Source: Rhodococcus sp. Leaf278
GTDB lineage: Bacteria > Actinomycetota > Actinomycetes > Mycobacteriales > Mycobacteriaceae
Assembly (NCBI RefSeq): GCF_001426085.1
Contig: NZ_LMRR01000003.1
Location: 124,001-188,000, forward strand
Direction of reading: 5' to 3'
Length of the DNA: 64,000 nucleotides
Numbering within the stretch: position 1 is the first letter of the stretch; the number at the start of each line of letters is the position of its first letter. The translations under genes were made by a program, and so were the position numbers. Of the stretch, positions 1 through 16,305 are shown in pieces. The notes under the pieces are model-generated. The model did not search any database, had not been told where the DNA came from, and saw only the letters and a program-made list of their open reading frames with translations.

Positions 1-325
1 GGCCATCCCGATACTCAAAGACGCCATTTCCAGGGCAGATTCGCCGGTCGTCTTGACTGATCTCTCGACACTTGCAGCGTACGGGCAGCTAGGAGTTTTG
101 CACTCATGGGCTGACCTCGCATCGCCGCCAAAGCATGCCGTCTGGGTCTTGGTGCCGCAACGGCAAGAGTCCGGTGGTTTACCTGGTGCGAGCGTCGACG
201 GGACTGCGCTACCCCTCAACAGCCCGGAACAGTTCATTCAAGTTGCCGCCGAGGAAGTAGCAGCTTTGCTCGCACACACGCAACCACAGCAACATGACAA
301 CCGTATCGAGGAGAACATCCGATGA
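1..325 (+). CDS. pglW: C-terminal fragment, probably PglW kinase of BREX type 2
   Basis: An open frame enters from the left edge (first full codon at base 2) and ends at TGA 323-325, giving about 107 C-terminal residues. No kinase motif lies in this tail, so the call rests on position: in type 2 BREX the order is pglW-pglX-pglY-pglZ-brxD-brxHI, and this frame overlaps the pglX start by ATGA (322-325). The tail reads as a short alpha/beta module (a hydrophobic VWVLVPQ strand, then a proline-rich loop). PglW is a large Ser/Thr kinase-like protein; that part would lie outside the window. The family is inferred from context, not from a domain seen here. Confidence 0.7.
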   Translation, partial: AIPILKDAISRADSPVVLTDLSTLAAYGQLGVLHSWADLASPPKHAVWVLVPQRQESGGLPGASVDGTALPLNSPEQFIQVAAEEVAALLAHTQPQQHDNRIEENIR

Positions 326-3300
326 CGTCGGCCACCACGGCAGGCCCTCAGCTCACGGCTGCGTTGAAGCCGCAGCTGGCACTGCTGGTCGACGACATCC
401 GAGATCGACTCGAACACGACGGCGAAGAGTTGGGGCGCTGGCAAGCGACCCATCGTCAAGCGATCGAGGAACAGCGCACTGCTGGCTCGTGGACCGACTG
501 GTCGGAAGACCAGATCACGCAGGCGGCAGTCGGTTGGCTATTGACTTCGGTCTTCGTGCGTTACTGCGAAGACAATATGCTGCTGGGCGACTCTGCTGTC
601 TGGATTGCTGGGCCAGACCGCGGTTTGCGGCAGCGCGCGGAAGATGCGGAGAACGACTTCTACCGACGGAACCAGGATCTGTCTTACCGTGAGTGGCTCA
701 AGGTGTCATTCGCGGCGCTGCGCGACTGCCCCGCCACCCAGGCTCTGGTCGACGACCACGCAGCACTCAACATCGCTTCACCGTCTTCCGATGCTGTGCA
801 ACAACTTCTGTCATTCTGGCGACGGACCGGTGATGACGGAGAGCTGATCTGGTCATTCGCCGACAGCAACCTGTCCACTCGATTCCTGGGCGACCTCTAC
901 CAAGACCTCTCTGAATTTGCGAAGAAGAAGTACGCACTGCTGCAGACGCCTGAATTTGTCGAGGAGTTCATCCTCGACAGAACGCTTACACCAGCTCTGC
1001 AAGACCGCCCGCTCGAAGGCTTCAAGTTGATCGACCCCACATGCGGTAGCGGGCACTTCCTGCTCGGTGCGTTCGCGCGGCTCACCGAACGCTGGCACCA
1101 AGAGGCACCGGGTCTTGAGCTGCGGACGCGCGTGGACAACGCCCTCGCTTCGATCTACGGCGTAGACCTCAATCCATTTGCCGTGGCTATCGCCAAGTTC
1201 CGCCTGATCGTCGCTGCACTCAAAGCCTGCGGCGAAAGCTCGTTGATCAATGCACCGAAATTTACACTAAACCTCGCCGCTGGCGATTCACTGCTTCACG
1301 GGCCCGAAGCAGACGGTACGGACGCGTTTGATTATGGTGAAGCAGAACTAAACAAAGACTTCGTCGCTGCGGGATTCAACTACAGCACCGAAGATGCAGC
1401 CATCCTCCGTCCGATTCTCACCCCTGGGACTTACGATGTAGTAGTTGGAAATCCTCCCTACATTGTCGTCAATGACAAAGCGCTCAATATTCGCTACCGA
1501 GAGCTATATCCTTTCTGCAAAGGGAAATACGCCCTTACCGTTCCATTTATGGAGCTCTTTTTCAAGCTTGCGAAGCACGGTGCGCGGCCAGGATTCACAG
1601 GGCAGATTACCTCAAACTCTTTTATGAAGCGAGAATTTGGGGTACCTTTGATTGAAGAATTTCTGGCAAAGAAAGACTTGCTACTGGTTGCCGATACCTC
1701 GGGGGCTTACATTCCGGGCCACGGCACTCCGACTGTAATCGTGGTAGGTCGCAACCAGGGCATCAAGCGCGATTTCGTTCGCGCGGTGCTAGGAGTACAG
1801 GGCGAGCCAGGCGCGCCCAAAGATTCTGCTAAGGGTAAAGTTTGGACGTCCATCACTGAACACGTCAACGAGCCAGGCTTCGAAAACCCTTTCATATCAG
1901 TGACAGATCTTGCCCGCAACAAGCTCTCAAACCACCCATGGAGCCTTACTGGCGGTGGCGCCGCCGATGTACTAGCAGCGATCGAGATGCACGCCAGCTC
2001 CCAGCTCCACCAAGCAGCGAAACGAATCGGCGTCTTCGGGATGACCAATTGCGATCCCGCAATGATCATTGACACTGCAACCTGCTCGCGGTTCAGCTTG
2101 GAATCGACAGCACTCCAAAGACTGGTCCTGGGTGACCAGGTAAGAGACCACCGAATTAGTTCAGGGAATTCTGTTTGGTTTCCATATTCAGACGAGATCA
2201 AACTAGTACCAGTTAGTGAGTATCCAAATTTTGAGAGATATCTTTGGCCAAATAGGACCGAGCTCGGAAACAGGGCCACCTTCAACAAAGTGTCGTATTT
2301 CGTGGAAGGTCGACCTTGGTACGAGTGGCACCAGGTACCGCGAGGCGACGACCCTGACACCTTCACAATCACCTTCGCCGAAGTCGCGACGCACAATCAC
2401 TTCGTCCTCGACCGTGGCGGCAAGGTGTTCAAACAAACTGCACCCGTGATCAAGCTGCCGAAGGACGCGACTGAAGACGATCACCTGCGAATACTCGGGT
2501 CACTCAATAGCTCCACAGCATGCTTCTGGCTGAAACAAAATTGCCACAACAAAGGCAGCACGGTTGATCAGAGTGGAGCTCGGACAACCCTGTCTGCGTG
2601 GGAGAATTTCTATCAGTTCAACGGAACCACTCTCAAGAACTTCCCGCTACCTGTAGCTGCGCCGCTGGACCGTGCACGTCGAATTGACATATTGTCACAA
2701 CAGCTGTCCGCGCAGGAGCCTGCCGCCGCGATAGAGACATACGGCGCAAGCCGCGCCACCATCGATGCCGCACGGACCGAGCACGCGTGCATCCACGCAG
2801 CGATGGTTGCCGAACAGGAAGAACTCGACTGGGAGGTCTACCGAAACTACGGCCTCATCGACGATGACCTCACTGTTCCGGTTGCCGAGGCGCCCGAAAT
2901 CGTGCTTGGCGAGCGCACATTCGAAATCGTGCTCGCCCAAAAAGTCGCATCCGGTGAATTAGAGACAGCATGGTTTGCCCGTCACAACGCCACACCGATC
3001 ACAACGGTTCCCACGCAGTGGCCGAGCGACTACCGCGTACTCATCGAGAAGCGAATCGCGGCAATCGAATCCAATCCCTTCGTTCGCCTGCTTGAGACAC
3101 CGGAGTACAAGCGCCGGTGGGCCGGAGAATCATGGGACACCAAACTCCAGAGTGCTCTGAAAGACTGGCTTCTCGACAGACTGGAGGACCAGTCGCTCTG
3201 GTTCACGCCGCAGGGCACGCCACAGCCGCGCTCGATTGGTGAGCTCGCCGGCCACGTCGAGACCAGCACAGAATTCATCGATGCGCTCGATCTATGGGCA

Positions 3301-3930
3301 GGTCAGAAAGACGCGCCCGTTACCGCCACGCTCATCAAACTCCTGGCAGATGAGGGTGTTCCCTATCTTGCTGCCATGCGCTACAAGGACTCCGGATTGC
3401 GCAAACGTGCGGAGTGGGAACGCGTCTGGGATATGCAACGAGATGAGGATGCTGGCCTGATGGCGGCAACCGACATTCCGGTACCTCCGAAGTACACCGG
3501 CGCTGACTTCGTCAAACAGTCCTACTGGTCGCACCGCGGCAAACTCGATGTCCCCAAAGAACGATTTATTTCCTACCCCGGCGCGGGACGAGAAACCGAT
3601 CCGACTCCGATGCTGGGTTGGGCGGGTTGGAACCATGCCCAGCAGGGCATCGCCCTTGCGACGATCTACGCCTGGCGCGAATCCGAGGGCATCGATCTCG
3701 TTGAACTCGTACCGGTCGTTGCTGGCATTGCCGAGATACTGCCCTGGGTCAAGCAATGGCACGCCGGCGTCGACGCCAATATCGGTCTCGATTTGGCCGA
3801 GTACCTCACCGGCCAGCTGGCCGAGAAATCAGCAGCAGTGAACGTGCCCGTGGACGATCTCAACAAGTGGCGGCCCGTCAAGACCACCCGAGCACGCAAA
3901 GCTACCGCACGAAAGGCAGTTCAACAGTGA
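322..3930 (+). CDS. pglX: BREX-2 adenine-specific DNA methyltransferase PglX
   Basis: A 1202-residue protein of the usual PglX size. The SAM-binding motif [10 protein letters not shown], is at residues 238-246 and the catalytic motif IV, NPPY, at 377-380, in the order expected of an N6-adenine methyltransferase. A helical N-terminal region precedes the catalytic core, and a long C-terminal half probably carries target recognition. In BREX the enzyme marks host DNA as self at a non-palindromic site and is also needed for phage restriction. The start ATG overlaps the upstream stop (ATGA) and has a GAGGAG-type ribosome site at 308-313. Both motifs are intact, so it is likely active. The recognition site cannot be read from sequence. 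Confidence 0.95.
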
Positions 3931-6900
3931 CCTTCTCCGGTTCATCCGCCGCTCCAGCTCGGACTTTGCGAGAGACGTTTGCGATCCCGGAGTCGCACGG
4001 CACCAATGATTACGTGCTACGCCTCTCGGATTCAGTCGAAGAGAACAGCATCGCAGCAACCATCAATACGTACGTGGTCACGCCGGCACTCGTCGAAGCC
4101 TTCGACACTGCGTTGTCCGTCGTCGACGAAGCACTGCGCACCAAGCAGAACAAGGCCGCGTACCTCGAGGGATCCTTCGGCTCGGGCAAGTCGCACTTCA
4201 TGGCAGTTCTGCACGCGGTCCTCGGGCACTCGCCCGCAGCACTGTCCACTCCCGAACTTCAACCGGTGATCGCGAAACATCCGGCGATTGGACACGCGAA
4301 CCTGTTGCGCCTGACGTTCCACTTCCTGGACGCACACAGCGTGGAATCGGCACTGTTCGATCAATACCTGCGTCAAATTGCGGCTCTGCACCCCACTGCC
4401 TTACCTCCGGTGCTGCATTCGGCCGGCGGACTGTTCGTAGACGCGGACAACCGACGCCGCGAGGTCGGTGACGACACCTTCTTCGCAGCACTAAACGGCG
4501 CACACACCCAACGGACCACAACAGTTGACTGGGGCGCGTTGGGGCAGGGAAGCAGCACCTGGACTGCGGATACTTATGCGTCCGCTAGCGCGCCCAATGC
4601 GGACCCCGAGGTGCGTGCGAAACTGCAGCAGGCTCTGATTGCCACATACTTCACCAGCTACTCACGCAATACTGATTGGCTACCGCTGGAAGACGGTCTC
4701 GCCGTAATCGCCGACCACGCCAAGTCGCTCGGTTATGACGGCGTCGTACTGATGCTCGATGAGCTGGTCCTATGGCTGACGTTCATGATCACCGCGCGCG
4801 AGAAGTTCAATGTCGAGGTCCAGAAGATCACCAAGCTCGTCGAAACCAGTCGCGGACACCTCGCAGTTCCCATCGCGTCGTTCATCGCGCGTCAGCATGA
4901 CCTCAGCCGCTGGCTGACCACCGGGCCCGAGTCCGGTGCGACTCAGCAGGCCCTGGAGCAAGCATTCGCCCATCAGGCCGGGCGGTTCGGCAGCGTCCGA
5001 CTCGGTGACGAGAACCTGCCCTACATCGCGAACAAGCGGCTGCTTCAACCAGCGGACGCGGAAGCGGTCGCCGCACTCGACACCGCGTTCGCTCGCCTCG
5101 ATCGCAGCCCCAAGGTCTGGGATGTATTGCTCGACGGAGTCAACACCGACGATCAACACCGAGGGTCCGACTCCGACGCGTTCAAGCTCACCTACCCGTT
5201 CTCGCCCGCGCTCATCGATACCCTGCGGTCGCTCTCCGGTCAGATGCAACGCGAGCGCACTGCGCTCAAGGTGATGCAACAAATACTTGCCGACAACGCA
5301 GACCGCCTCACCATCGACAACGTCATTCCGGTTGGCGAGGCCTTCGACTACATCATCGACAGCGCCAACGCGACACCGATGAACGACGCTGCAGCACAAA
5401 CGTTCAAGACTGCCAGAACGCTGTGGACCGACAAATTACGTCCATTGCTCTTCAAGAACGCGGGCGTTCTTGAAACGACAGCAGACAAGGACGTTCCGGC
5501 CGGACTGCGCGCCGACGTCCGGATCGCCAAGACATTGCTGATGTCCGCTGTTGCGCCGAACGTGCCTGCACTCAAGCAGATTGACGCGTCAAGGCTGGCA
5601 TCGCTCAATCACGGCAGCGTCATTAGTCTCATTCCCGGGGACCAGATCGGTCAGATCACCAACAAGGTGAAACAGTGGGCAGCGGAGATACCGGAGCTGT
5701 CCGTCACCAACGATGCAAACCCGATCATCTCTGTGACGCTCGAATCCGTAGACTACGAGCGCATCATCGCGCGTGCACAAGCGGAAGATACCGATGGCCG
5801 TCGTCGGGAGCTGATGCGTGATCTGCTCGCCGAGCACCTAGGAGTCATCGGGGCTCAACACACTGTCGACAACGCTCTGCTGCGTTCGATCACCTGGCGT
5901 GCTACGCACCGGCAGGTTGAAGTCGTCTTTGGCAATGTTCGAGACCATGGCTACCTCCCGGATGAGACTTTCCGTCCATCCGTTGACGGTGCGTTGAGGC
6001 TTGTGGTCGATCTACCATTCGATGACGCGGGACATACGACCGCCGAGGACCACGACCGCGTCGAACAATTACGGCGAACCAGCCAAGACCGATTCACCGT
6101 CGTCTGGCTCCCCAGCTTCTTCCCGGAGAAGGTAACCCGCCAGCTGGGGCGCCTCGTCATTCTGAACTACGTTTTGGCCGGCGATAGGTGGGCCAGCTAT
6201 GCCAACGAACTGTCCGAAGCAGACCGGGCTGCCGCACGCTCGATACTCCAACAGCAGCAAGCTCAGGTACGCGGCCAGCTGAACAATGCTGTCCAGGTCT
6301 CCTATGGCGTAGCCGCAGGAGCTTCCTTCGCGGAAGGCCAACCGCCGCTTCGGTCCCTCCACGCCGGCTTTGTCGTACAGCCACCCATCGGAAATACGCT
6401 GGGCGAGGCCGTCAATCGGCTCATCGGCGACGCGTTCGACGCGCTGTACCCGGACCACCCCGATTTCACCCCGCCGGACAAGCTCATAAGCCGCGGTGAA
6501 CTGAACGTGGTCCTCAAACGACTACGAGAAGCTCAATCTCAGGTGGACGGCCGTATCCCACTCGAGCGTTCCGAGCGCGATATCGCCCGTCGAGTCGTGG
6601 AACCCTTGGCCCTCGCCAAGACCAACGAGACGCATCTGCTGTTCGGACCGGAGCACTTCGCGACGTGGCGGAGCCGGATTACCCAAGAGCTGTCGAGATC
6701 CTCGATCGATGAGGACACCGACGTCGCAATAGAGGTCCTTCGGACGGCCATCGCGGCCAGCGGGACCAGACGCGGACTTACCGACGACATGATCGACCTC
6801 GTTGCGGGTGCATGGACCGCTCAGACGAAGCGCTCATGGTTCCTACACTCGTCCCCCATCGCCGAACCGCTCATCGGAGACTTCCGCCGTGGCACCACAA

Positions 6901-7673
6901 TGCGCCTCGAACCCTTGCCCGAACGCCAACCGTGGATCGACGCCTGCCGCCGGTGGAATGTGCTTACCGGCCAGAATGTGAACGATTTCCTCACTGCAAC
7001 CAATGTCGCGGTCTTCGCACGCACGGTGCAGGAGTTCGCTGCCACCGGACGCGCAGACCGCCTGCGTCTAGTGAGCACGCTGACGAGGGCTGACAGCCAC
7101 CTTGCAATTCCGCATGACAACGCGCGACTGGCTCTCGCCCAGGACCTCTGCGAACTCCTAGACAATCGAATTCCACACTTGGACAACATTGCATTGGTCG
7201 ACGCACTAGCCGGCGCAGACCTTCATGGCACAGATCTCGAAGCTGGGCGTTCGATGACAACGGCCGGCGCTGTTGCGAACACAGTGGATGGATTCTCGTT
7301 GGACCGCTTGAACGTGCTAAGCAACGCTGCTTTGACCGAGGACGATCGCGGGCGCACTGCAGCTGCCATAGTTGACTCGATAGTCGTTGCACTTTCCGGT
7401 CATGAACTCGTTCATCCACTCAGCGCTGCGTTGGACAAAGCTACTCAGGACCGCGATAAGTGGCTGGAAGGAGGAATTGGGCATCCGCCACCGCCGCCCC
7501 CAGAGCCACCGGTTCCGCCAGTTCCGCCAGTTCCGCCAGTTCCCGAATCGCTCTACGAGTTCACGGTTGACGGTCCTCAGAATTACTCAATCGTCGAAGA
7601 GCGCCTCAAGGCGCTGATGGCGGAGAACCCAGGCGTGCGATACACCGTCACCATTTCTCGGATCGATCGATGA
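3927..7673 (+). CDS. pglY: BREX-2 P-loop ATPase PglY (BrxC-like)
   Basis: The frame is open from 3756, but GTG 3927 overlaps the pglX stop (GTGA) and follows GAAAGG at 3911, giving a 1248-residue protein. The Walker A motif is [10 protein letters not shown], with Lys at residue 88. A Walker B-like segment ([12 protein letters not shown]) lies near residue 275. This matches PglY/BrxC, the large AAA-type core ATPase of BREX. Near the C-terminus a proline-rich linker (7488-7545) contains three exact 9-bp repeats coding VPP, followed by a small terminal domain. The linker is long and low-complexity, so the last ~45 residues are probably a separate module on a flexible tether. It is coupled to pglZ by an ATGA overlap. 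Confidence 0.93.
7488..7545 (+). repeat. Proline-linker microsatellite inside pglY
   Basis: A run of proline codons is followed by three exact tandem copies of the 9-mer gttccgcca at 7512-7538 and a partial fourth. The unit is in frame, so slippage would change linker length by three residues without breaking the gene. Confidence 0.85.
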
Positions 7674-10471
7674 CTATGTCCACGAACCTTCCGAAAGCAG
7701 ATTTGGCCAGCGTTCGGAATTTGATATCGAACTCGAGGCTGTCGCGACACAACCATGGAGTGATCGCGGTATCCGCAGCACCTGAGTGGGCGGGCGACGC
7801 GGAATTCACCTTCGACGGGCAAACCGTCAACGTCCGCACAGCACCGAGCGTCCTGGCGATCCGGGACGCGCTGACCGAACGCAGTCGCGTCGACTGGGTA
7901 GTGATCCTGACCGACCGCACCGCAACGGAACTACCCGTCGGCATCCTCGAACACCTTGCTGCGGGCCGTCTCTCGAATCTCGACCCGTGGCCTGTGCTAC
8001 GCGAAATGTTCAGTGCATCGAAGCAAGAGTTCAATTTGCTCTCACTGAAAAATGAGTCTGCCCGGGCTGTACTACGAGAGTTGGACGGTCAACAGATGGT
8101 GCCGGCTCCAGGTGGAGTGCTCACCAACGAACACCTGTTCACCTCGCTCGCGCGCGACCGATTCGGCTTGAAGCCAGCAGAATTCACCCCTCACAGCATC
8201 GCCATGTGGTCCATGAACCGCGAGGATGCACTGCGGTTCGACGGCTGGCGCTCGCGCACCGACCCACAATTGTTCGATGAATTTCTGAGCTGGATCAGCG
8301 GACGCCTCGGACCCCTCGGAAGCCCGTTCACAACAGTGCTCCGAACCACCGGCCCAACCGAACTGGTGCCCCTCGGGTTGGTAGCAGCGTTGCTCGACAA
8401 CGGCACGGCGATCTCGACGGCATTCCCTGCTGCGCTCGAGACATCCATCAAGGTCCGAACACTGTTGGAAGTCCACCTCGGCGGCACAGCAGGTCTCACC
8501 GAACAACAGCTGATCGCGTGGGGTAACACAGCAGCCCTCGCTGTCTCCGGTACCGAAGTGTCAGCTGACATTCTCCGGCGCGGCGAAGATCTTGTGACTT
8601 CTCTACAGGCTGATTCATTGATCGCCCGATCAGATGTGCTGCCGTCCGCTATGACACCGCGTATCGGGCAGTTCGCCGCCGCGTTGATCGAGTCGACGCA
8701 AACCGGCAGCCTCGCTACGGTCGAGAATGCGTGGGCCAACGTCATTTCTCACCGTTCAGCGCGGATGGACACCAACGACGCTCCTCGTGATGTTCGTGTC
8801 GGCTCGGCCGCACTACGTCTACTCCGTTGGCTACAACGTCCCGCGGCCCAACCCTCGACATTGGCGTCATGGCTTGCGGAACATCGATCGGATCTGTCCT
8901 GGGTGGACGGTGCAGTCAATGCGGCCTTCACCGGCGCAGACAACACTGCGCTCGCATCGGCGGCCCACCGCATCATCGACCTTGTTCGTCAGCGACGGGC
9001 GAAGGCCGATCGGCAGTTCGCTTCGCTCCTTGCAGCCAACGGCGTTCATCGAAGCGCAGCCGCCGGAATGCCCTTGCTGATAGAGGATCTCCTCGACCGC
9101 GTCGTTCGCCCTCTCACGGTGCCGCAGCCGGGTGCCACCGGTTCATCCAATCCCGTCAAACCCTCCCCCGTACTCCTGATCGTCGCCGATGGGATGAGTG
9201 CGACTGTCGCGAACGAAACCGTCGCCGATGCGCTCCGGCGCTACCGACCTCAGTGGCAAGAGTGTGTGTTGGAAGACGTCAACGATCTGCAGGCGGCACT
9301 TGCTGTACTTCCGACAGTGACGAAGTTCTCGCGTTGTTCACTGCTGACCGGAGCACTTGCCACCGGAACCCAGGACCGTGAGCGCAGCGGCTTTGCTTCC
9401 TGGCTACAGAGCAACGCACTGCCTGCAACCGGCCAGGTTCTCTTTCACAAGGCTGACATGGATGCGGTGTCTCGGGGCCACGCCCTTGCGTTCGATGTCC
9501 GCATTGCACTAGAAGACACCGGTAATCGCCCCGTCGTTGCCTGTGTCCTCAACGACATCGATGACGCGTTGGATCGTTCCGATCCCATCGGATCGACCTG
9601 GTCGACATCGAGTTTCAAGCACCTCGACGCGCTCCTAGCTGCGGCCGCCGCAGTGGGCCGTACGGTCGTCCTGACAAGCGACCACGGCCATGTCGTCGAA
9701 CGCCGTGAACAGCCCAGTGTTCAACGTGGAGTCAGGGAATCAGCACGCTATCGGTCTGCCGCCGGAGTCGACCCGACGTCCTTGCCGGCCGACGAGATCC
9801 TGGTCGAGGGTGAGAGAGTCCGAACCGACGACCACCGCGCGATCCTCGCAGTGGATGAGCAGGTGCGCTACACCGGACTCAAGGCCGGATATCACGGTGG
9901 TGCCACGCTATCCGAGACAGTCATCCCCGTATCGATATTGGTCAACGGTGCTGTTCCCCCACACCTAGGTTTGGTGCTACGCCCTAATCCAGTACCTGTC
10001 TGGTGGGATCCGCAGCGGACCACCGTCGTTGCCCCGACTGTAGCGACGGAACTCGTGCGCGCTGTACCCAAACGGAAGCCTGTCGTCAAACCTGCACCGC
10101 AGCCGGACTCGCTGTTCGACGTGGCCGAGCCGGCCGCCCCTTCGGCCACGCCCACGCCGGCCGGTGGTCGAGATCTCGTCGCGGAATTGATTGCGAGCCC
10201 ACTCTTCACACAGCAGTACAACGCGTTTCCTCCACGAATCACCAAACCTGTTATCGGACTGTTCATCCAAGGACTGATCAACGGAAACGGCCGGCTACCC
10301 CTCGCCCAGGCCGCTGAGATTCTCGGCGTCCAAGCAGGTCGAGCGAAGAGAACGATCGCCGCGCTCAGCCAAGTGATCAATGCGGACGGAGTGGTAGCGC
10401 TGAGCGAGAATGGAATCGAAGTAGAGCTCGCAGCGAGCCTGATGTTCGAACAATACGAGGTGAAGCCATGA
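7670..10471 (+). CDS. pglZ: BREX-2 phosphatase-superfamily protein PglZ
   Basis: A 933-residue protein with the PglZ domain of the alkaline phosphatase superfamily. [13 protein letters not shown] starts the metal-binding fold, SDHGH (Asp671-His674) is the second metal motif, and YHGGATLSE supplies the last metal-ligand region. Residues 1-430 are a helical N-terminal region. A Pro/Ala-rich linker (about 805-840) leads to a winged-helix-like C-terminal tail (846-933). That tail is paralogous to the last 87 residues of the protein encoded at 13944-14621. PglZ is the signature BREX protein. The start overlaps the pglY stop (ATGA), and the 3' end overlaps brxD. Confidence 0.94.
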
Positions 10472-11760
10472 GTCTGTCCCCCGTTCGGCGTCGAGAAATT
10501 CTTCAGGCACTCCGACAAGGCACTGTGCCGTCCGGCAACCTCGATGTCTTGGCAGTGGGCATAGACAAGTTCGCCAACACGGTCGGAGAGGATCTCGAGG
10601 CGGTCGCTTCCGGTGGAGCTGTCTTCAAAGCAGTGAGAGGTGAGTACGGCTCCGGCAAAACATTTTACGCACGCTGGCTGCAGCAACAAGCCATGAAACG
10701 CGGTTTGGCAGTAGCAGAGGTCCAAATCAGCGAACTGGAGACCCCGCTCCACAAACTCGAAACTGTCTACCGCCGCACCACGGAATCACTGCGTACTTCC
10801 GCATTCGCCCCCTCTGCCTTCCGCAGCGTCCTCGACGCGTGGCTTTACGGGATCGAGGAGGACGCCGCAGCCGCAGCAGGCACAGATGAAGCATCGCCTG
10901 AACAGGTCGACGCGTTGCTGGAGACGCGGCTCGCCGCCGTTGCATCAGCGACCCCGGTGTATCCAATGGTTTTGCGCGCGTACAGAGCTGCGCTCGAGCG
11001 CGACGATGTAGCCACCGCTGATGCACTGGTCGCCTGGCTCGGCGGGCAACCGCATGTCGGTGCCGCAGCTAAGCGCGCAGCCGGAGTCCGTCAAGACGTC
11101 GATCACTTCCTGGCCATGGGTTTCCTTCAAGGCTTACTTGCAGTGTTGAAGGGCGCTCGCCACCCCGGCCTGCTGCTAGTGATCGACGAAGTCGAAACGC
11201 TACAGCGCATGCGGTCCGACGCGCGAGCCAAAGCACTGAATGCGCTTCGCCAATGGATTGACGAACTCGACTCGGGCCGCTACCCCGGCCTGTACCTACT
11301 CATCACTGGTACGCCCGCATTCTTCGACGGGCGGATGGGCGTCCAGTCCCTCCCACCCTTGGCGCAACGACTGCATACCGACTTCTCGGGGGACGCCAGA
11401 TTCGACAACCCCCGTGCGCCTCAAATTCGCCTTGCGGGATTCGACATCGACAGATTGGTCGAAGTCGGGATCCGTGTGCGCGACGTCTTCCGAGACGGGT
11501 CCGCGGTGCCCGAACGGATTGCCTCGATGGTCGATGATGACTACATCGCCGATCTCGCACGCGCCGTCGCCGGCAAACTCGGCGGTCAGGTCGGAATCTC
11601 GCCGAGACTATTTCTGAAGAAGCTCGTTCTCGATGTATTGGACAAGGTGGATCAGTTTCCGGAGTTCGATCCTCGTCAGAACTACTCGCTAACACTGAGT
11701 TCCGAAGAGATGACTGACACCGAACGCCACGCGGTCTCCGCGGATGAGGTCGAGTTGTGA
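10468..11760 (+). CDS. brxD: BREX ATP-binding protein BrxD
   Basis: A 430-residue P-loop protein of the DUF2791/BrxD type found in BREX types 2 and 6. Walker A is RGEYGSGKT (Lys64), and Walker B (LLLVIDEVET) is near residue 240. Overlaps at both ends (ATGA with pglZ, GTGA with brxHI) place it in one translationally coupled message. The BrxD-helicase pair is the marker that separates type 2 from type 1 BREX. Its exact role is unknown; in other systems BrxD-like ATPases act together with the partner helicase. Confidence 0.9.
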   Translation: MSLSPVRRREILQALRQGTVPSGNLDVLAVGIDKFANTVGEDLEAVASGGAVFKAVRGEYGSGKTFYARWLQQQAMKRGLAVAEVQISELETPLHKLETVYRRTTESLRTSAFAPSAFRSVLDAWLYGIEEDAAAAAGTDEASPEQVDALLETRLAAVASATPVYPMVLRAYRAALERDDVATADALVAWLGGQPHVGAAAKRAAGVRQDVDHFLAMGFLQGLLAVLKGARHPGLLLVIDEVETLQRMRSDARAKALNALRQWIDELDSGRYPGLYLLITGTPAFFDGRMGVQSLPPLAQRLHTDFSGDARFDNPRAPQIRLAGFDIDRLVEVGIRVRDVFRDGSAVPERIASMVDDDYIADLARAVAGKLGGQVGISPRLFLKKLVLDVLDKVDQFPEFDPRQNYSLTLSSEEMTDTERHAVSADEVEL

Positions 11761-13922
11761 CTGGATTCGACCGGTTGAACCCAGTAGTCCAACACCACAT
11801 CGTCAACAGCCTCGGATGGCAAGGCCTTCGGCCACTGCAGGAAGATGCCATCGTCCCGATTATGGGCGGGGAGGACGCAATCCTTCTTGCGCCCACGGCA
11901 GGTGGTAAGACCGAAGCGGCATGCTTTCCACTGCTGAGCAGGATGGCGGACGAGAACTGGCAGGGCCTCTCGGTTCTGTACCTGTGTCCGCTGAAAGCTC
12001 TGTTGAACAATCTGCAACCACGCATTGAGTCGTACACCGCCTGGGTAGGGCGCGAGGCGCTTACTTGGCATGGCGATGTGTCTAGCTCGGCTCGGACTCG
12101 AATCAAGCGTGAACAACCAGACATTCTTCTGACTACTCCAGAGTCACTGGAATCCATGCTGGTGTCCGAGAGCGTAGATGCCGGTCAACTCTTCGCGAAC
12201 CTACGGGCGGTTGTGATCGACGAGGTCCACGCGTTCGCGGGCGACGACCGCGGGTGGCATCTTTTGGCGGTTCTCGCTCGAATTGAAAGCCTGCTCGGTC
12301 GGCCGTTGCAGCGTGTCGGAATGTCTGCGACTGTCGGCAATCCCGACGAACTCTTGAATTGGCTGCAATCTGCTGACTCCGCAAGAATCGGCCGTGTCAT
12401 CGCCCCGGAAGTCCCCGGAAACGCAGTCGCCGTCGTAGGGTCATCTCTCACCGTCGCTTCGGCACAGCCAGCGCCTGCAGGTGGGACTCTGACCGATGTA
12501 ACAGTCGACTACGTCGGCGGCGTGGAGAACGCAGTCAAGGTGATTGCGGCGCTACACCAAGGTGAAAAGCGTCTGGTTTTCGTCGACTCTCGCAGGCTCG
12601 CAGAGGAACTCGGCGAAGGGCTTCACGAAGCGGGCGTCACTGTCTTCATCTCACATTCGTCCTTGTCGGCGGCCGAGCGACGCAGGTCAGAGGAAGCATT
12701 CGCCGACGCCCGCGACTGCGTCATCGTCTCAACCTCGACACTCGAACTGGGAATCGACGTAGGCGACCTTGATCGGGTCATACAGATCAACGCACCGCGC
12801 ACTGTCTCGTCTTTCTTGCAGCGACTTGGCCGAACGGGCCGACGGGCCGGTACTACACGGAACTGCCTGTTTCTCGCACTCGACAACGACAACTTGCTGG
12901 CGACGTTGGGAATGCTGAACTGCTGGAGCCAGGGTTGGGTCGAACCAGTCACACCACCCATTGCGCCGCGTCACATTGCCGCACAACAAATTCTGGCTCT
13001 CGCATTGCAGAACCACCGAGTTCCACTGTCCAATTGGAAGAATCAATGGGGCACGCTTCCGCTCTTCGATTCTACCGCCGACGAGAGTTTCGAGTATCTA
13101 TTGGCCGAGGGCTTCCTGCAGCAAGACGGCGGTATCGCATTCATGGGTCCCGAGGCAGAGAAGCGATTTGGACACCGGCACTTCATGGAACTACTCGCAG
13201 TTTTTACCGCTGCGCCGCAGTTCACGGTCATGGCTGGTCGCAACGACATTGGGTTTGTCGAAACTGAAGTCCTCACCGAAGCAGTCGAAGGTCCACGCGT
13301 TCTATTGCTCGGCGGACGATCGTGGATGGTCACGCACATCGACTGGAATCGACGCATTTGCTACGTCGAGACAACCACCATCACCGGGCGCGCGAAGTGG
13401 GGCTCTGCTGGGGAGGGCGCGTCCTTCAGGATCAGCCGCGGAATGCGTGCAGCATTGCTGGGCACAATGCCAGCGGGCGTCACGCTCACAAGACGCGCGA
13501 CCTCTGCGATCGAGGGGCTCCGTACCGATAGAAGTACAACCGTCGCAGACCAAGTACTTGTCGTGACACGCGAGGAGAACGGCGATTGGCGATGGTGGAC
13601 CTGGGCTGGCACCCGCGCGAACAGAACTCTGTCCGCTTGGCTCCCGTCAGTAGTGCCGCCGCGACAGCTCACACGTGGGGATTCGATCCGCCTATACCCA
13701 GACATCGGTCCCCGAGAGATCGGTGCGGCGTTAGCAGAGGCACGAAGCCCTGGTGCGCCGAAGCCGTTGCCATTCGTCAATCCGAAAGCGTTAAGCGGAT
13801 TGAAGTTTTCGGCTGCACTTCCAGAAAAGCTCGCCGTGCTGACATTGGCGGCGCGACTCGTGGATACAGATGGCGCGCAAGCCACGTTGGGCAACAAGAC
13901 GTCAGTTCGAGCGCACGGGTAA
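11757..13922 (+). CDS. brxHI: BREX Lhr-like DEVH helicase BrxHI
   Basis: A 721-residue superfamily 2 helicase starting at GTG 11757, which overlaps the brxD stop. Motif I is APTAGGKTEA (Lys51), motif II is DEVH at 155-158, motif III is SATVG, and the second RecA domain ends with the QRLGRTGR motif VI. This is the Lhr-type layout used by BrxHI. The C-terminal ~300 residues form an accessory region as in Lhr. It is the last gene of the operon and converges on the minus-strand gene at 13944 across only 21 bp. No strong intrinsic terminator is visible in that gap. Confidence 0.92.
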   Translation: MTGFDRLNPVVQHHIVNSLGWQGLRPLQEDAIVPIMGGEDAILLAPTAGGKTEAACFPLLSRMADENWQGLSVLYLCPLKALLNNLQPRIESYTAWVGREALTWHGDVSSSARTRIKREQPDILLTTPESLESMLVSESVDAGQLFANLRAVVIDEVHAFAGDDRGWHLLAVLARIESLLGRPLQRVGMSATVGNPDELLNWLQSADSARIGRVIAPEVPGNAVAVVGSSLTVASAQPAPAGGTLTDVTVDYVGGVENAVKVIAALHQGEKRLVFVDSRRLAEELGEGLHEAGVTVFISHSSLSAAERRRSEEAFADARDCVIVSTSTLELGIDVGDLDRVIQINAPRTVSSFLQRLGRTGRRAGTTRNCLFLALDNDNLLATLGMLNCWSQGWVEPVTPPIAPRHIAAQQILALALQNHRVPLSNWKNQWGTLPLFDSTADESFEYLLAEGFLQQDGGIAFMGPEAEKRFGHRHFMELLAVFTAAPQFTVMAGRNDIGFVETEVLTEAVEGPRVLLLGGRSWMVTHIDWNRRICYVETTTITGRAKWGSAGEGASFRISRGMRAALLGTMPAGVTLTRRATSAIEGLRTDRSTTVADQVLVVTREENGDWRWWTWAGTRANRTLSAWLPSVVPPRQLTRGDSIRLYPDIGPREIGAALAEARSPGAPKPLPFVNPKALSGLKFSAALPEKLAVLTLAARLVDTDGAQATLGNKTSVRAHG

Positions 13923-13943: not shown

Positions 13944-14621
13944 TCAGTTCACTCGAAACTGCTCGAACAGGAGCGCTGGGTTCAAACGTACTTCGGTGCC
14001 GTTCTCGGACAATATGTTCGCGCTGTCTTCGTTGATCACCTGGCTCAGGACAGCGACGCTCTGCCGGACCCTGCCAGGCCGAATGCCGAGAACTTCGGCG
14101 ACCTCGCCAAACGAGGCCTGTCCGTTCGCTTCGATCAGCTCGCTCAGCATCATTCCGATCGACAGCGGTGAAAAACGTGGCCTGAATCGGTCGTATTGCC
14201 TTCTGAACTGCTCACCTTCGACCAATTGTTCGACCTTGTCGTTCATCTTAGAGTCCGGTCGCCCAACCCCTACCGATCCCTGGATCGGCACAGTATTTGA
14301 GCCGGAGCTCGGCATTGAAGTCTCGGCGCGTCCTAAGGTGATGGCTGAGCCTGGGCGGCTCCACACGATATCGGACGAACCGCCTGGTGACAGCTGAAAT
14401 GTGTCGATCAACAACTCGACCAGCTGCTCTGCCATCGGAAGATCAAGCTGTATCGACTGACTGCTCTTGGGCGCAGAAACACGGTTGTCAGATCCGAAGG
14501 TCGACAAGTGAAGGATCTTGTTCTCGTCCTTGTCGTGAAAGACCGCAAACTGACAATCGACCTCTGTCGGAGCAGATTTCACTCGCTGTGTGCTCGGCGA
14601 TATCGATCGGATCTTTGCCAT
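13944..14621 (-). CDS. PglZ-tail paralogue fused to a small N-terminal domain
   Basis: A 225-residue protein with AGGAAG just upstream of ATG 14621. Residues 139-225 align without gaps to PglZ 846-933: 39 of 86 positions are identical by eye, including LSQVIN, LSENG and a FEQ terminus. The fold looks like a winged helix. Residues ~19-75 (PTEVDCQFAVF ... LHLSTFGSDNR ... SSQSIQLD) resemble a small uncharacterised domain I recall from many bacteria, sometimes carrying a doubtful methionyl-tRNA formyltransferase label. A Ser/Pro-rich linker joins the two. It has no phosphatase domain. The protein could compete with or bridge to PglZ partners, or be a DNA-binding regulator of the locus. The function is not known. 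Confidence 0.8.
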   Translation of the reverse strand: MAKIRSISPSTQRVKSAPTEVDCQFAVFHDKDENKILHLSTFGSDNRVSAPKSSQSIQLDLPMAEQLVELLIDTFQLSPGGSSDIVWSRPGSAITLGRAETSMPSSGSNTVPIQGSVGVGRPDSKMNDKVEQLVEGEQFRRQYDRFRPRFSPLSIGMMLSELIEANGQASFGEVAEVLGIRPGRVRQSVAVLSQVINEDSANILSENGTEVRLNPALLFEQFRVN

Positions 14622-14679: not shown

Positions 14680-15342
14680 TCAATAACCCTCGTGGCCGAG
14701 AAATTCGATTGAATCGCTTGTCACTCGATACAACTCGGAGCCGCCCATCCGCGACGAAGAATCCACATGGAGCGCACTACCGTCGAGAGTGAGTCGATAC
14801 CCGCCATACTTTCCAGGAACCCCGAACCACAGTTCTCCCGATTCGATCTCAGTCAGCACCTCGACCTGGGGATAACGTAGCGGTGACCTGCGCCAACGAA
14901 GAAGCTCTGCGTCCAATAGGAAGTTGAGCCTGAGTTGCAGCGACTCAACGAGAGTTTCACCCAGTCTATGCACCGGTTTCGGTTCGAGCGATGTCGTGTA
15001 GGTCGTGTGGCCTTGCATTGTATAGATGTCCACCGGTCGATTACCGTCTGCGTCGCGGACTGAACGCCACGCTCCTCGATTGATGAGCCCGTGGATACCG
15101 TGTGCATCTCCACTCCATGCAGCCTGGTGCAGCGGGGTGAAGTGGGACTTTCCGCCTGATCTGGTCGAATTTACGTTCGCGAGCGGCTCGTAGCTGTCCA
15201 TGCTGTCGAGGACTTCGAACAGGGCTGGCCAGTCACCCCGGTATGCAAAATCAGAGATTTTCGCTCTTGCGTCCGAGGGAGTTACGTCTTTGACGTCCAG
15301 GATGCCGTCCCACCATTCGGTGGTGCTTCGATCGCGGTTCAC
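14680..15342 (-). CDS. Ankyrin-repeat protein
   Basis: A 220-residue protein starting at GTG 15342, overlapping the stop of the preceding gene (GTGA). Residues ~67-112 contain an ankyrin repeat (FTPLHQAAWSGDAHGIHGLI ... RDADGNRPVDIY); the segment before it (about 26-60) looks like a degenerate repeat. The C-terminal 80 residues form a beta-rich region of unknown type. Ankyrin repeats bind proteins, so a scaffold or inhibitor role is possible. It lies 58 bp upstream of the PglZ-tail gene on the same strand and is probably co-transcribed with it. No signal peptide or membrane segment is visible. Confidence 0.8.
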   Translation of the reverse strand: MNRDRSTTEWWDGILDVKDVTPSDARAKISDFAYRGDWPALFEVLDSMDSYEPLANVNSTRSGGKSHFTPLHQAAWSGDAHGIHGLINRGAWRSVRDADGNRPVDIYTMQGHTTYTTSLEPKPVHRLGETLVESLQLRLNFLLDAELLRWRRSPLRYPQVEVLTEIESGELWFGVPGKYGGYRLTLDGSALHVDSSSRMGGSELYRVTSDSIEFLGHEGY

Positions 15343-15668
15343 AGTCTGAACTCTTTAGGCGATGAGCTGAGCACGTCATCGTCCGATGATTCAACCTCCG
15401 CAGCCTGGAGCAATGAATCTCCACGGCGTAGACGCTTCACCGCATCCGCAACGAGTCGCTGACCGTCCAACGAGATGCTGCTCTGCACGAACGAATTGAC
15501 CTGTTCGGCTGGCGAATCGACGCGTACCGCATCGACGCGCGTCTTCCACGATTCGTAGTCGTCGGGCTCGGCGAAGGTGATGACACCGATTCCATGCCTG
15601 GCCGCTGTCGTGACTCCGATGCCGACGTTCTTCTTCGTCGATTCCGACAGCACTGACGCCACGTGCAT
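15339..15668 (-). CDS. Uncharacterised 109-aa protein
   Basis: An open frame from ATG 15668 to TGA 15339-15341, overlapping the stop of the truncated ATPase (ATGA) and the start of the ankyrin gene (GTGA). It is therefore held in a coupled operon. The sequence has a central strand-rich stretch (KNVGIGVTTAARHGIGVITF) followed by helices (AEQVNSFV, GQRLVADAVKRL). I do not recognise the family. It could be a complete small protein, or the surviving C-terminal piece of a larger gene whose middle was lost together with most of the adjacent ATPase. Confidence 0.65.
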   Translation of the reverse strand: MHVASVLSESTKKNVGIGVTTAARHGIGVITFAEPDDYESWKTRVDAVRVDSPAEQVNSFVQSSISLDGQRLVADAVKRLRRGDSLLQAAEVESSDDDVLSSSPKEFRL

Positions 15669-16054
15669 CAGTTCTCCCTCCGGTAACGCGAACCTGTGAC
15701 AGCGAATTCGAGAGCCTCTGCAAAACTCGACTCGCCCGACCCGTTACGACCGGTGACGATGGTGATGCCCGGTGCGGGATGCAGAGCCGACGTTGCTTTC
15801 GGCCCGATGCCGCTGAACCCAGCCACGGTAATCTGTTTCAGAAATGCGCAGACCGGCTCTTCGCCCAATGCATCCGATACCTCCCGAGCCTGCGGGGTCG
15901 AGATCCCGTCGAGCAATTGTTGCAACGCACTCGGGCCCTCGAGAGCCGCACGAACGAGATACTTGACGTCGTCGGACAGCTTCTCGTCGGCGTCGTTGGC
16001 TTCCAGCACGGCATCGACCAACGGTCTGTCGACAGCATTGTCGGCAACGGTCAC
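15668..16054 (-). pseudogene. Truncated SMC/RecF-like ATPase, Walker A Lys to Glu
   Basis: Read from GTG 16054 (AGGGGA six bases upstream) this gives 128 residues; GTG 16060 is possible but has no spacing to its ribosome site. After ~75 helical residues comes the N-terminus of an SMC/RecF-type ATPase (FLKQITVAGFSGIG ... ITIVTGRNGSGES). The P-loop reads GRNGSGES, where GKS is expected: codon GAG at 15731-15733 replaces an AAG lysine codon. The frame stops 19 residues after GES. Coiled-coil, signature and Walker B parts are absent, and nothing downstream restores them. I read this as a decayed ATPase. A short regulatory protein kept by its operon position is the alternative. Confidence 0.7.
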
Positions 16055-16147
16055 CGGCACTCCCCTGTTCGTTCTTTTCGCTAACCAGACCCCACAGTTA
16101 CATATGGGACCGACAGTCCGCAGGGACATCGAGAACGCGACGCAATG

Positions 16148-16305
16148 TGTCGGTGCCTGATGCTTCGATGGCGGTATGTCACGACTCGGCGGGGGGTTCC
16201 CGCCTCTCACGGCCTGTGTGTAGTGGTTTCAGCACCGCGGCTGCGACGTACACGTCCTCGACAACGGTGTGGAGGTGGACCTGGATTGATGGAACCGCCA
16301 CCTCG
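16148..16305 (+). repeat. Left copy of a 158-bp direct repeat (5' end of the gene at 20307)
   Basis: This stretch matches 20279-20436 in the same orientation with about 17 differences and no gaps (roughly 89% identity, counted by eye). It covers the 28 bases before the start codon and the first ~43 codons of the 257-aa gene. Similarity ends abruptly at both sides. Confidence 0.88.
16176..16305 (+). pseudogene. 5' fragment of a 257-aa-type gene with two stops
   Basis: The frame of the intact gene at 20307 is followed here from ATG 16176 but is interrupted by TAG at 16221-16223 (Gln16 in the intact copy) and TGA at 16287-16289 (Trp38). It ends after about 43 codons. It is a non-functional remnant squeezed between the truncated ATPase and the convergent 433-aa gene. 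Confidence 0.85.

Follow-up and report, generated by a model that had tools for sequence, protein, structure and literature searches.

A 225-residue protein encoded beside the type-2 BREX (BREX-2) locus of Rhodococcus sp. Leaf278 carries the C-terminal winged helix-turn-helix (wHTH) domain of a type-2 PglZ, fused to a small N-terminal domain of a different kind. Judged from sequence, this protein (the fusion) is a two-module accessory protein and more than a PglZ paralogue, and its N-terminal half occurs alone elsewhere. A preliminary description had called it a paralogue of the PglZ tail, which was right as to the homology and the fusion but too narrow as to the nature of the protein. The parts are of known kinds, and the combination is without a described counterpart in the literature searched: open-licence papers, without their supplements, on BREX and PglZ, Pgl accessory genes, PC4-like defence and defence islands gave no description of a PglZ-tail fusion protein, in line with the earlier remark that its author knew of no such BREX component. 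We refer to the whole 64,000-nucleotide stretch of DNA that was analysed as the window; its features are listed in Table 1.

Table 1. Features of the BREX-2 locus and the fusion gene in the window
Feature	Coordinates	Strand	Basis
End of pglW, start upstream of window	2..325	+	PADLOC PglW on L060 (16189); frame traced by hand into ORF 53-325
pglX methyltransferase	322..3930	+	PADLOC
pglY/brxC ATPase (longest ORF; true start probably further in)	3756..7673	+	PADLOC
pglZ, 933 aa, type 2	7670..10471	+	NF033446 674.7 bits; PADLOC
PglZ C-terminal wHTH, homologous to fusion tail	10172..10465	+	Pairwise comparison
brxD, 430 aa, AAA+ ATPase	10468..11760	+	PADLOC BrxD E 1.3e-192; Walker-type motifs by eye
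brxHI helicase, 721 aa, convergent with fusion	11757..13922	+	PADLOC BrxHI E 1.7e-300
Fusion gene, 225 aa	13944..14621	-	ORF and relatives
PglZ-type C-terminal wHTH, residues 127-225	13947..14243	-	Sequence comparison, profiles, AF2, Foldseek/VIA
Linker, residues 79-126 (88-120 predicted disordered)	14244..14387	-	AF2 pLDDT; length varies between relatives
N-terminal GSDxR/KxSQ domain, residues 1-78	14388..14621	-	Alignment, 17 relatives; AF2; Foldseek; VIA-align
109-aa ORF	15339..15668	-	54% identity over 98 aa to R. kroppenstedtii ORF end

The fusion gene is an open frame with an ATG start and an AGGAAG ribosome-binding-like site. It runs on the strand opposite to pglX-pglY-pglZ-brxD-brxHI, as had been observed before, and 21 bases separate its 3' end from that of brxHI; within the operon the brxD start and the pglZ stop share 4 bases. 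An AF2 model of the whole protein (input alignment of 44 locus-derived rows) has a mean pLDDT of 83.5, falling below 50 at residues 88-120, and predicts two modules with a flexible linker between them. The next ORF upstream encodes 220 aa (14680-15342, minus strand), with a weak ankyrin-like match and no match among the compared ORFs of the other fusion loci. The 109-aa ORF beyond it matches the end of an R. kroppenstedtii ORF lying immediately ahead of the fusion gene there, and by this similarity is probably the remnant of a shared neighbour gene. A 180-aa ORF (15668-16210, minus strand) has at its end only the initial ~50 residues of an SMC/LmuB-type ATPase domain and looks truncated.

Residues 128-225 of the fusion align without a gap to residues 835-932 of the window PglZ, with 42 of the 98 positions identical and 61 similar (E 1e-24 in this single pairwise comparison). 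The match had been described as 87 residues long; it is real but extends about 11 residues further, and without the first 11 columns the identities number 39, the earlier count. Type-2 PglZ is the sole PADLOC family listed for the fusion at E <=1 (PDLC02565, positions 806-907 of 910, E 2e-11). Positions 788-890 of 890 of NCBIfam BREX_PglZ_2 (NF033446) match at E 3.3e-9, with 35.6 bits against the 200-bit cut-off that the fusion fails as a whole protein, and a profile of 32 PglZ tails matches the fusion tail at E 3.1e-29 among the 12 sequences searched. All three profiles place the two tails in one family rather than in unrelated folds. The PglZ catalytic domain (PF08665), present in the window PglZ in a Pfam scan, is not matched in the fusion at E <=1, which bears out the earlier remark that the phosphatase domain is missing.

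The C-terminal domain of the model is confident and helical with a small wing. Its matches to winged-helix folds are middling (best E 0.01 with Foldseek, Z up to 7.1 with VIA-align) and are of the MarR/ArsR type, and a Pfam scan gave no MarR/ArsR-type match above cut-off, the best wHTH rows (E 0.017-0.15) all lying below their cut-offs. Sequence searches of solved structures with both modules returned nothing convincing, the best match being a TAL-effector repeat (E 0.0016). A published survey, in its passages on type-2 PglZ, describes the C-terminus as a three-stranded wHTH in place of the type-1 beta-sandwich and asks for experiments on it (PMC12839542). On sequence, profiles and the AF2 model, we conclude that the fusion tail is this same wHTH and a member of the same family. 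The single BREX-5 PglZ that we compared is without the tail.

The FGSDNR...SSQSIQLD pattern pointed out in the preliminary description belongs to a real conserved domain. Eleven columns, including G43, S44, R47, K52, S54, Q55 and Q58, are identical in all 17 rows of our alignment A6, which holds the four known fusions and 13 non-fusion relatives. The AF2 model of the fusion predicts it with confidence as strands at 22-29, 35-42 and 53-59 and a helix at 61-75. VIA-align of the full model hardly probes this domain, so it was modelled separately (pLDDT 88.4), again with a predicted beta-beta-beta-alpha order. We saw no match at E <=0.001 with Foldseek or in a viral fold library; the Pur-alpha structure 3nm7_B was matched by Foldseek with a probability of 0.94 and TM scores of 0.52/0.57 at an E of 0.28. 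The top 20 VIA-align rows comprise 14 PC4/Sub1/Pur structures (Z 3.4-4.3), five COMM-domain proteins and arcadin-1, and the top row is a COMM-domain protein tied with PC4/Pur rows. The modelled domain thus weakly resembles the PC4/Pur single-stranded DNA (ssDNA)-binding fold, which we take as a hint and not an assignment. No family fits in a Pfam scan of the 17 members, in which seven families matched one member each (best E 0.069); PC4 is unlisted for all 17 at E <=10, with filters that discard most weak matches.

Homologues of the N-terminal domain also exist as stand-alone proteins of ~80 aa without a PglZ tail, and the 13 in the alignment are 27-57% identical to the fusion domain. A profile of the domain found it in 4 of 396 genomes of the phylum and 11 of 298 of the order, which are lower bounds because the loose first look may miss members. 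Net charge is slightly positive in five of seven stand-alone domains and negative in two. The stretches fetched around the 13 contain DruE in two cases (both convergent) and, in one case each, a ZacC-like helicase (convergent), a UvrD helicase (convergent), a NERD-UvrD helicase (divergent) and an HATPase protein, as well as a C5 methyltransferase in two and GmrSD-like proteins in two (one weak). Nothing defence-like was recognised in the stretches beside three of them (G043, G115, G296), and BREX-2 genes were absent from the stretches examined. A small domain family without a name recurs beside unrelated helicase-based defences. DruE works on ssDNA-containing intermediates according to the portion of PMC13192584 that deals with it, and such a role would fit a PC4-like partner. 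Two of the stand-alone genes (L036 9917-10159, L037 9627-9908) are convergent with a Druantia DruE-like gene, and the one in L036 is preceded by a 189-aa gene and a PDC-S37-like helicase-nuclease gene. A degenerate copy of the domain in G168, outside A6, lies in frame ahead of a C5 methyltransferase.

Among 37 genomes searched in the window's genus, four have the full-length fusion (the window genome, R. kroppenstedtii, Rhodococcus sp. 1168 and G710), and two others (G680 and G703) have N-domain-only genes; the DruE near that of G703 is 92% identical to the one in G680. All four fusion genomes have a BREX-2 locus, each with a complete type-2 PglZ above cut-off that keeps its own tail. G680 and G703 gave no PglZ_2 match. 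The fusion is convergent with brxHI in three loci (window, Rhodococcus sp. 1168, R. kroppenstedtii), and in G710 it has a divergent pglW on one side and on the other a second, convergent brxD that it overlaps by 4 bp, next to a complete BREX-2. Tail matches, weak ones included, were found in 37 of 301 genomes of the family, with the fusion in three, all of the window's genus, among the matches listed, where G710 is absent. Samples of the order (254 genomes, tail match in 34) and the phylum (396 genomes, tail match in 10) had the fusion in the window genome only. Present in 3 of the 37 tail-match family genomes, the fusion is not a core component of the kind found in most BREX-2 loci; with four of four full fusions inside or beside such loci, it behaves as a BREX-2-associated accessory gene. 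The proximity to BREX-2 remarked on at the outset holds in all four fusion genomes found, the full fusion not having been found away from BREX-2 in the genus, family, order and phylum samples.

Upstream of the fusion, the islands in L021 (95-10001) and L022 (101-10001) encode a PDC-S37-like helicase and a PbeA-like SF2 helicase. The L021 copies of these bear an MTES_1575 nuclease domain and a sigma-70 region 4, respectively, and the L021 island additionally holds a DRT UG5-nitrilase and a GIY-YIG protein. The R. opacus plasmid pLP414 has a close BREX-2, its BrxD being 88.6% identical, and its record shows no second tail match. Relatives of the fusion were not found in a phage collection, in viral contigs or in PHROGs, and a plasmid search matched solely the R. 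opacus pglZ and a Nonomuraea N-domain; a phage or plasmid origin was rejected, as none of these searches gave a fusion relative. Several further apparent tails in short frames were set aside as candidates. In the family search that of G859 looks like a PglZ with the frame broken upstream, that of G885 stands where a contig ends, and those of G791, G813 and G883 are partial HTH matches (E about 1e-3). Those of G026, G068, G079, G107 and G240 in the order search are partial and weak, and in the phylum search G559 is on a 3.2-kb contig and G568 is partial.

In a 47-row tail tree the tails of the four fusions come out as a single clade (99/100) with a long stem, and therefore no fusion is a fresh copy of the neighbouring pglZ end. 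The clade is nested among PglZ tails of the window's type in a group of 12 rows (87/86, at a fork not starred), and a single graft with divergence afterwards fits the sequences best. Comparison of the window with Rhodococcus sp. 1168 gives identities of 90% for the fusion N-domain, 70% for the fused tail and 95% for the PglZ tail. The corresponding pN/pS values are 0.073/0.747, 0.172/0.665 and 0.027/0.336, and since pN is well below pS both modules of the fusion are under purifying selection. The dN/dS ratio is 0.12 (dS 1.6) for the fused tail and 0.06 for that of PglZ; for the N-domain and for the fusion gene as a whole, saturation at synonymous sites precludes this ratio. These values suggest that the history of the fusion is older than, or was exchanged separately from, that of the BREX genes.

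We considered what the neighbourhoods reveal about a partner for the tail. The tail stop lies <=14 bases from the brxD start in 40 of 48 tail loci (50 fetched in the phylum, family and order searches, minus the partial match L070 and the fusion L071). Ordinary BREX-2 operons show this adjacency, which is not independent of pglZ and alone proves little; only G710 and G731 separate the link between tail and brxD from pglZ.

The second brxD of G710 (L035 11561-12853) is intact and lies tail-to-tail with the fusion. Its product is 70% identical to the window BrxD and 63% to the resident BrxD, and keeps the GEYGSGKT and LLLVIDEVE ATPase motifs. The space between the divergent pglW and fusion genes contains the palindrome TCGCCGGTCCGGCGA (L035 10884-10955). 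The resident PglZ tail and resident BrxD fall into the same other lineage, together with G731 and three more rows (100/99 in both trees). The G710 fusion tail groups with the other fusions and not with the resident PglZ tail, and the second BrxD is at the base of a 17-row clade holding the window BrxD (98/93), with long-branch flags on the second BrxD, fusion tail and PglZ tail rows. In AU tests, forcing the fusion tail into the resident lineage was rejected (p-AU 0.019), and forcing the second BrxD into that lineage was not (p-AU 0.083), nor was its placement as sister to the three BrxD proteins of the window's genus (p-AU 0.274). By lineage the second brxD seems to go with the fusion and not with the resident BREX, the BrxD part of this match not being significant by the AU test, and the two genes may be a block left from an older BREX-2.

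The second locus, in G731 (L100 6392-10959), encodes a 386-aa protein that ends in a PglZ-type wHTH at the start of a frameshifted brxD, with brxHI next. The protein is without a PglZ core and, its tail apart, is an unrelated protein. Its tail, which matched at E 5.2e-18 in the tail search of family genomes and at 3.6e-25 with PADLOC, was found by tblastn with G710 proteins and missed with the window PglZ query. Queries from the window and G710 (the G710 PglY being partial) gave no match to pglW, pglX, pglY or the PglZ core within 20 kb, the genome has no PglZ_2 match above cut-off (one other match, of 30.1 bits, is weak and elsewhere), and a plasmid search with the 386-aa protein gave no match. 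Because this tail groups with a different PglZ subclade, it represents a second graft. What looked like a BrxD-BrxHI fusion is two genes, with brxD changing frame over about its last 60 codons, and the frameshift suggests that the tail-brxD-brxHI set may be decaying. The preliminary description had proposed PglX, PglY or DNA as possible partners of the tail. Taken together, the neighbourhoods and trees point indirectly to BrxD.

Our preferred reading, which we hold tentatively and at rather less than even confidence, is that the fusion is an accessory adaptor or competitor that would dock through its PglZ-type wHTH on BrxD, or on BrxD-BrxHI, and present its N-domain there; between an adaptor and a competitor of PglZ we lean towards the adaptor. 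The fusion would then be an accessory subunit of type-2 BREX, with the PglZ wHTH acting as the docking module for the BrxD(-BrxHI) ATPase-helicase pair. Sitting on BrxD by the same wHTH, and replacing or flanking PglZ, it could carry a putative ssDNA-binding or dimerising PC4/Pur-like domain to where BrxHI opens DNA, such that the helicase step would be tuned or redirected. The tail homology, the BREX-2 context in four of four genomes, and the G710 and G731 loci speak for this reading, as do the tail-brxD adjacency, the tail-less BREX-5 PglZ, the stand-alone N-domains beside helicases, the fold hints and the low pN of both modules. The use of a PglZ terminal domain as a protein dock also has a precedent, since type I PglZ touches BrxB through its N-terminal domain as set out in the relevant part of PMC12205998. 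Counting against a general rule for the tail, no convincing tail was seen on the SngA proteins of Shango-like loci, where BrxD- and BrxHI-like proteins are also encoded, and the PC4/Pur resemblance of the N-domain is weak, with the low scores and tied COMM domains described above.

A detached copy of a possible docking domain could also be read as a decoy or immunity-type inhibitor, a mimic of the PglZ tail that blocks PglZ docking and restrains BREX-2 in self-protection, or as a captured counter-defence gene. The greater divergence of the fused tail than of the PglZ tail in the closest genome pair agrees with this, as does the PC4-like fold reported for the anti-CRISPR AcrIIA22 in the portion of PMC8545432 concerned with its structure. 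However, the extra divergence may mean an older split, pS being higher too, a full-length pglZ stands alongside the fusion in all four genomes, and the phage genomes, viral contigs and PHROGs hold no relatives; we regard this reading as unlikely. A transcriptional regulator, with the wHTH binding DNA to control the BREX-2 operon and the N-domain sensing or dimerising in the manner of BrxR, we consider quite unlikely. Its appeal lies in the MarR/ArsR-type wHTH-like model of the tail and in G710, where the fusion is divergent from pglW across 129 bp with a perfect palindrome of 7-bp arms. The 260-bp stretches that precede the other three fusions and the window pglW hold no palindrome of such size, and no operator common to the fusion loci was found in the regions examined. 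The fusion is moreover at the operon 3' end in three of four loci and has no Pfam match above cut-off. Both modules of the window protein are acidic (net charge -2.5 for the N-domain and -3.3 for the tail), which speaks against simple DNA binding, in the preferred reading too; the other three fused tails have net charges of -0.3, -3.2 and +2.7.

A point against a BREX subunit is that in two loci the start codon of the fusion overlaps the stop of an unrelated upstream neighbour (TGATG in Rhodococcus sp. 1168, TAATG in R. kroppenstedtii), so that the gene might belong to the neighbouring helicase-nuclease island, with its adjacency to brxHI coincidental. A PDC-S37-like helicase-nuclease is upstream of the fusion in both genomes, a distant relative of it is upstream of the N-domain-only gene in G680 but not in G703, and the window retains a probable remnant of the neighbour gene of R. 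kroppenstedtii. Nevertheless, the helicase-nuclease, PbeA-like helicase, DRT and GIY-YIG proteins are unmatched in the window and among the G710 ORFs (L035), whereas BREX-2 is present in four of four and the tail is of the PglZ family, and island membership is on balance decidedly unlikely. It is very improbable that the fusion is a by-product without function, left when the pglZ end was duplicated. Its occurrence in one genus among our samples and its differing length and place would allow this, but the frame is open in all four fusions, the motif residues are retained, and pN is far below pS in both modules.

Docking on BrxD, if correct, would invite a broader reading that we hold to be rather unlikely: the type-2 PglZ wHTH would be a portable BrxD docking tag, and BrxD-BrxHI a plug-in helicase-loading module that exchangeable adaptors could aim. 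The tag would have been grafted at least twice, in one Rhodococcus-group genus to a PC4-like defence domain and in G731 to an unrelated protein, and an adaptor could outlive its original BREX core, as the fusion and second BrxD beside a BREX-2 of another lineage in G710 would illustrate. Whatever its role, the fusion is a naturally detached PglZ wHTH next to BrxHI or BrxD and so offers a handle on the function of the PglZ C-terminus. The binding partner of the tail would map a contact in BREX-2 and bear on the recruitment of BrxD-BrxHI by PglZ.

Among known systems, a small accessory gene with a wHTH at a BREX locus is familiar from BrxR, the WYL regulator of type I BREX; the fusion differs in having no WYL match and a tail of the PglZ family. 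The G731 set resembles Shango SngABC in its three-gene order, a protein followed by BrxD-like and BrxHI-like proteins, with loci named by annotation and gene order (Shango as described in the part of PMC10250203 devoted to it). SngA differs from the G731 tail protein in its TerB-type annotation and in lacking a convincing PglZ tail; the fusion itself has no TerB or SngA match in Pfam or PADLOC. The tail as a hallmark common to SngA found no support in sequence: with the tail HMM the best domain E on three SngA proteins was 0.17, hhalign against eight gave probabilities of 0.2-1.6%, and the Mesorhizobium SngA, with a whole-sequence E of 0.008 in the 12-sequence search, has two weak matches away from the C-terminus. 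The N-domain shares its predicted beta-beta-beta-alpha order with PC4 and Pur-alpha, but differs from PC4 in having three clear strands rather than four, a net negative charge in the window protein and no Pfam PC4 match. The stand-alone GSDxR/KxSQ proteins, for which we found no family name, share this N-domain and mostly lie near defence or restriction-modification genes; they differ from the fusion in being without the tail and in having non-BREX-2 neighbours. From type-2 PglZ (NF033446, PDLC02565) the fusion differs in length (225 versus 933 aa), strand and N-terminal domain, with no match to the remainder of PglZ including its phosphatase/nuclease domain, yet both end in a C-terminal wHTH of ~100 aa that belongs to one sequence family.
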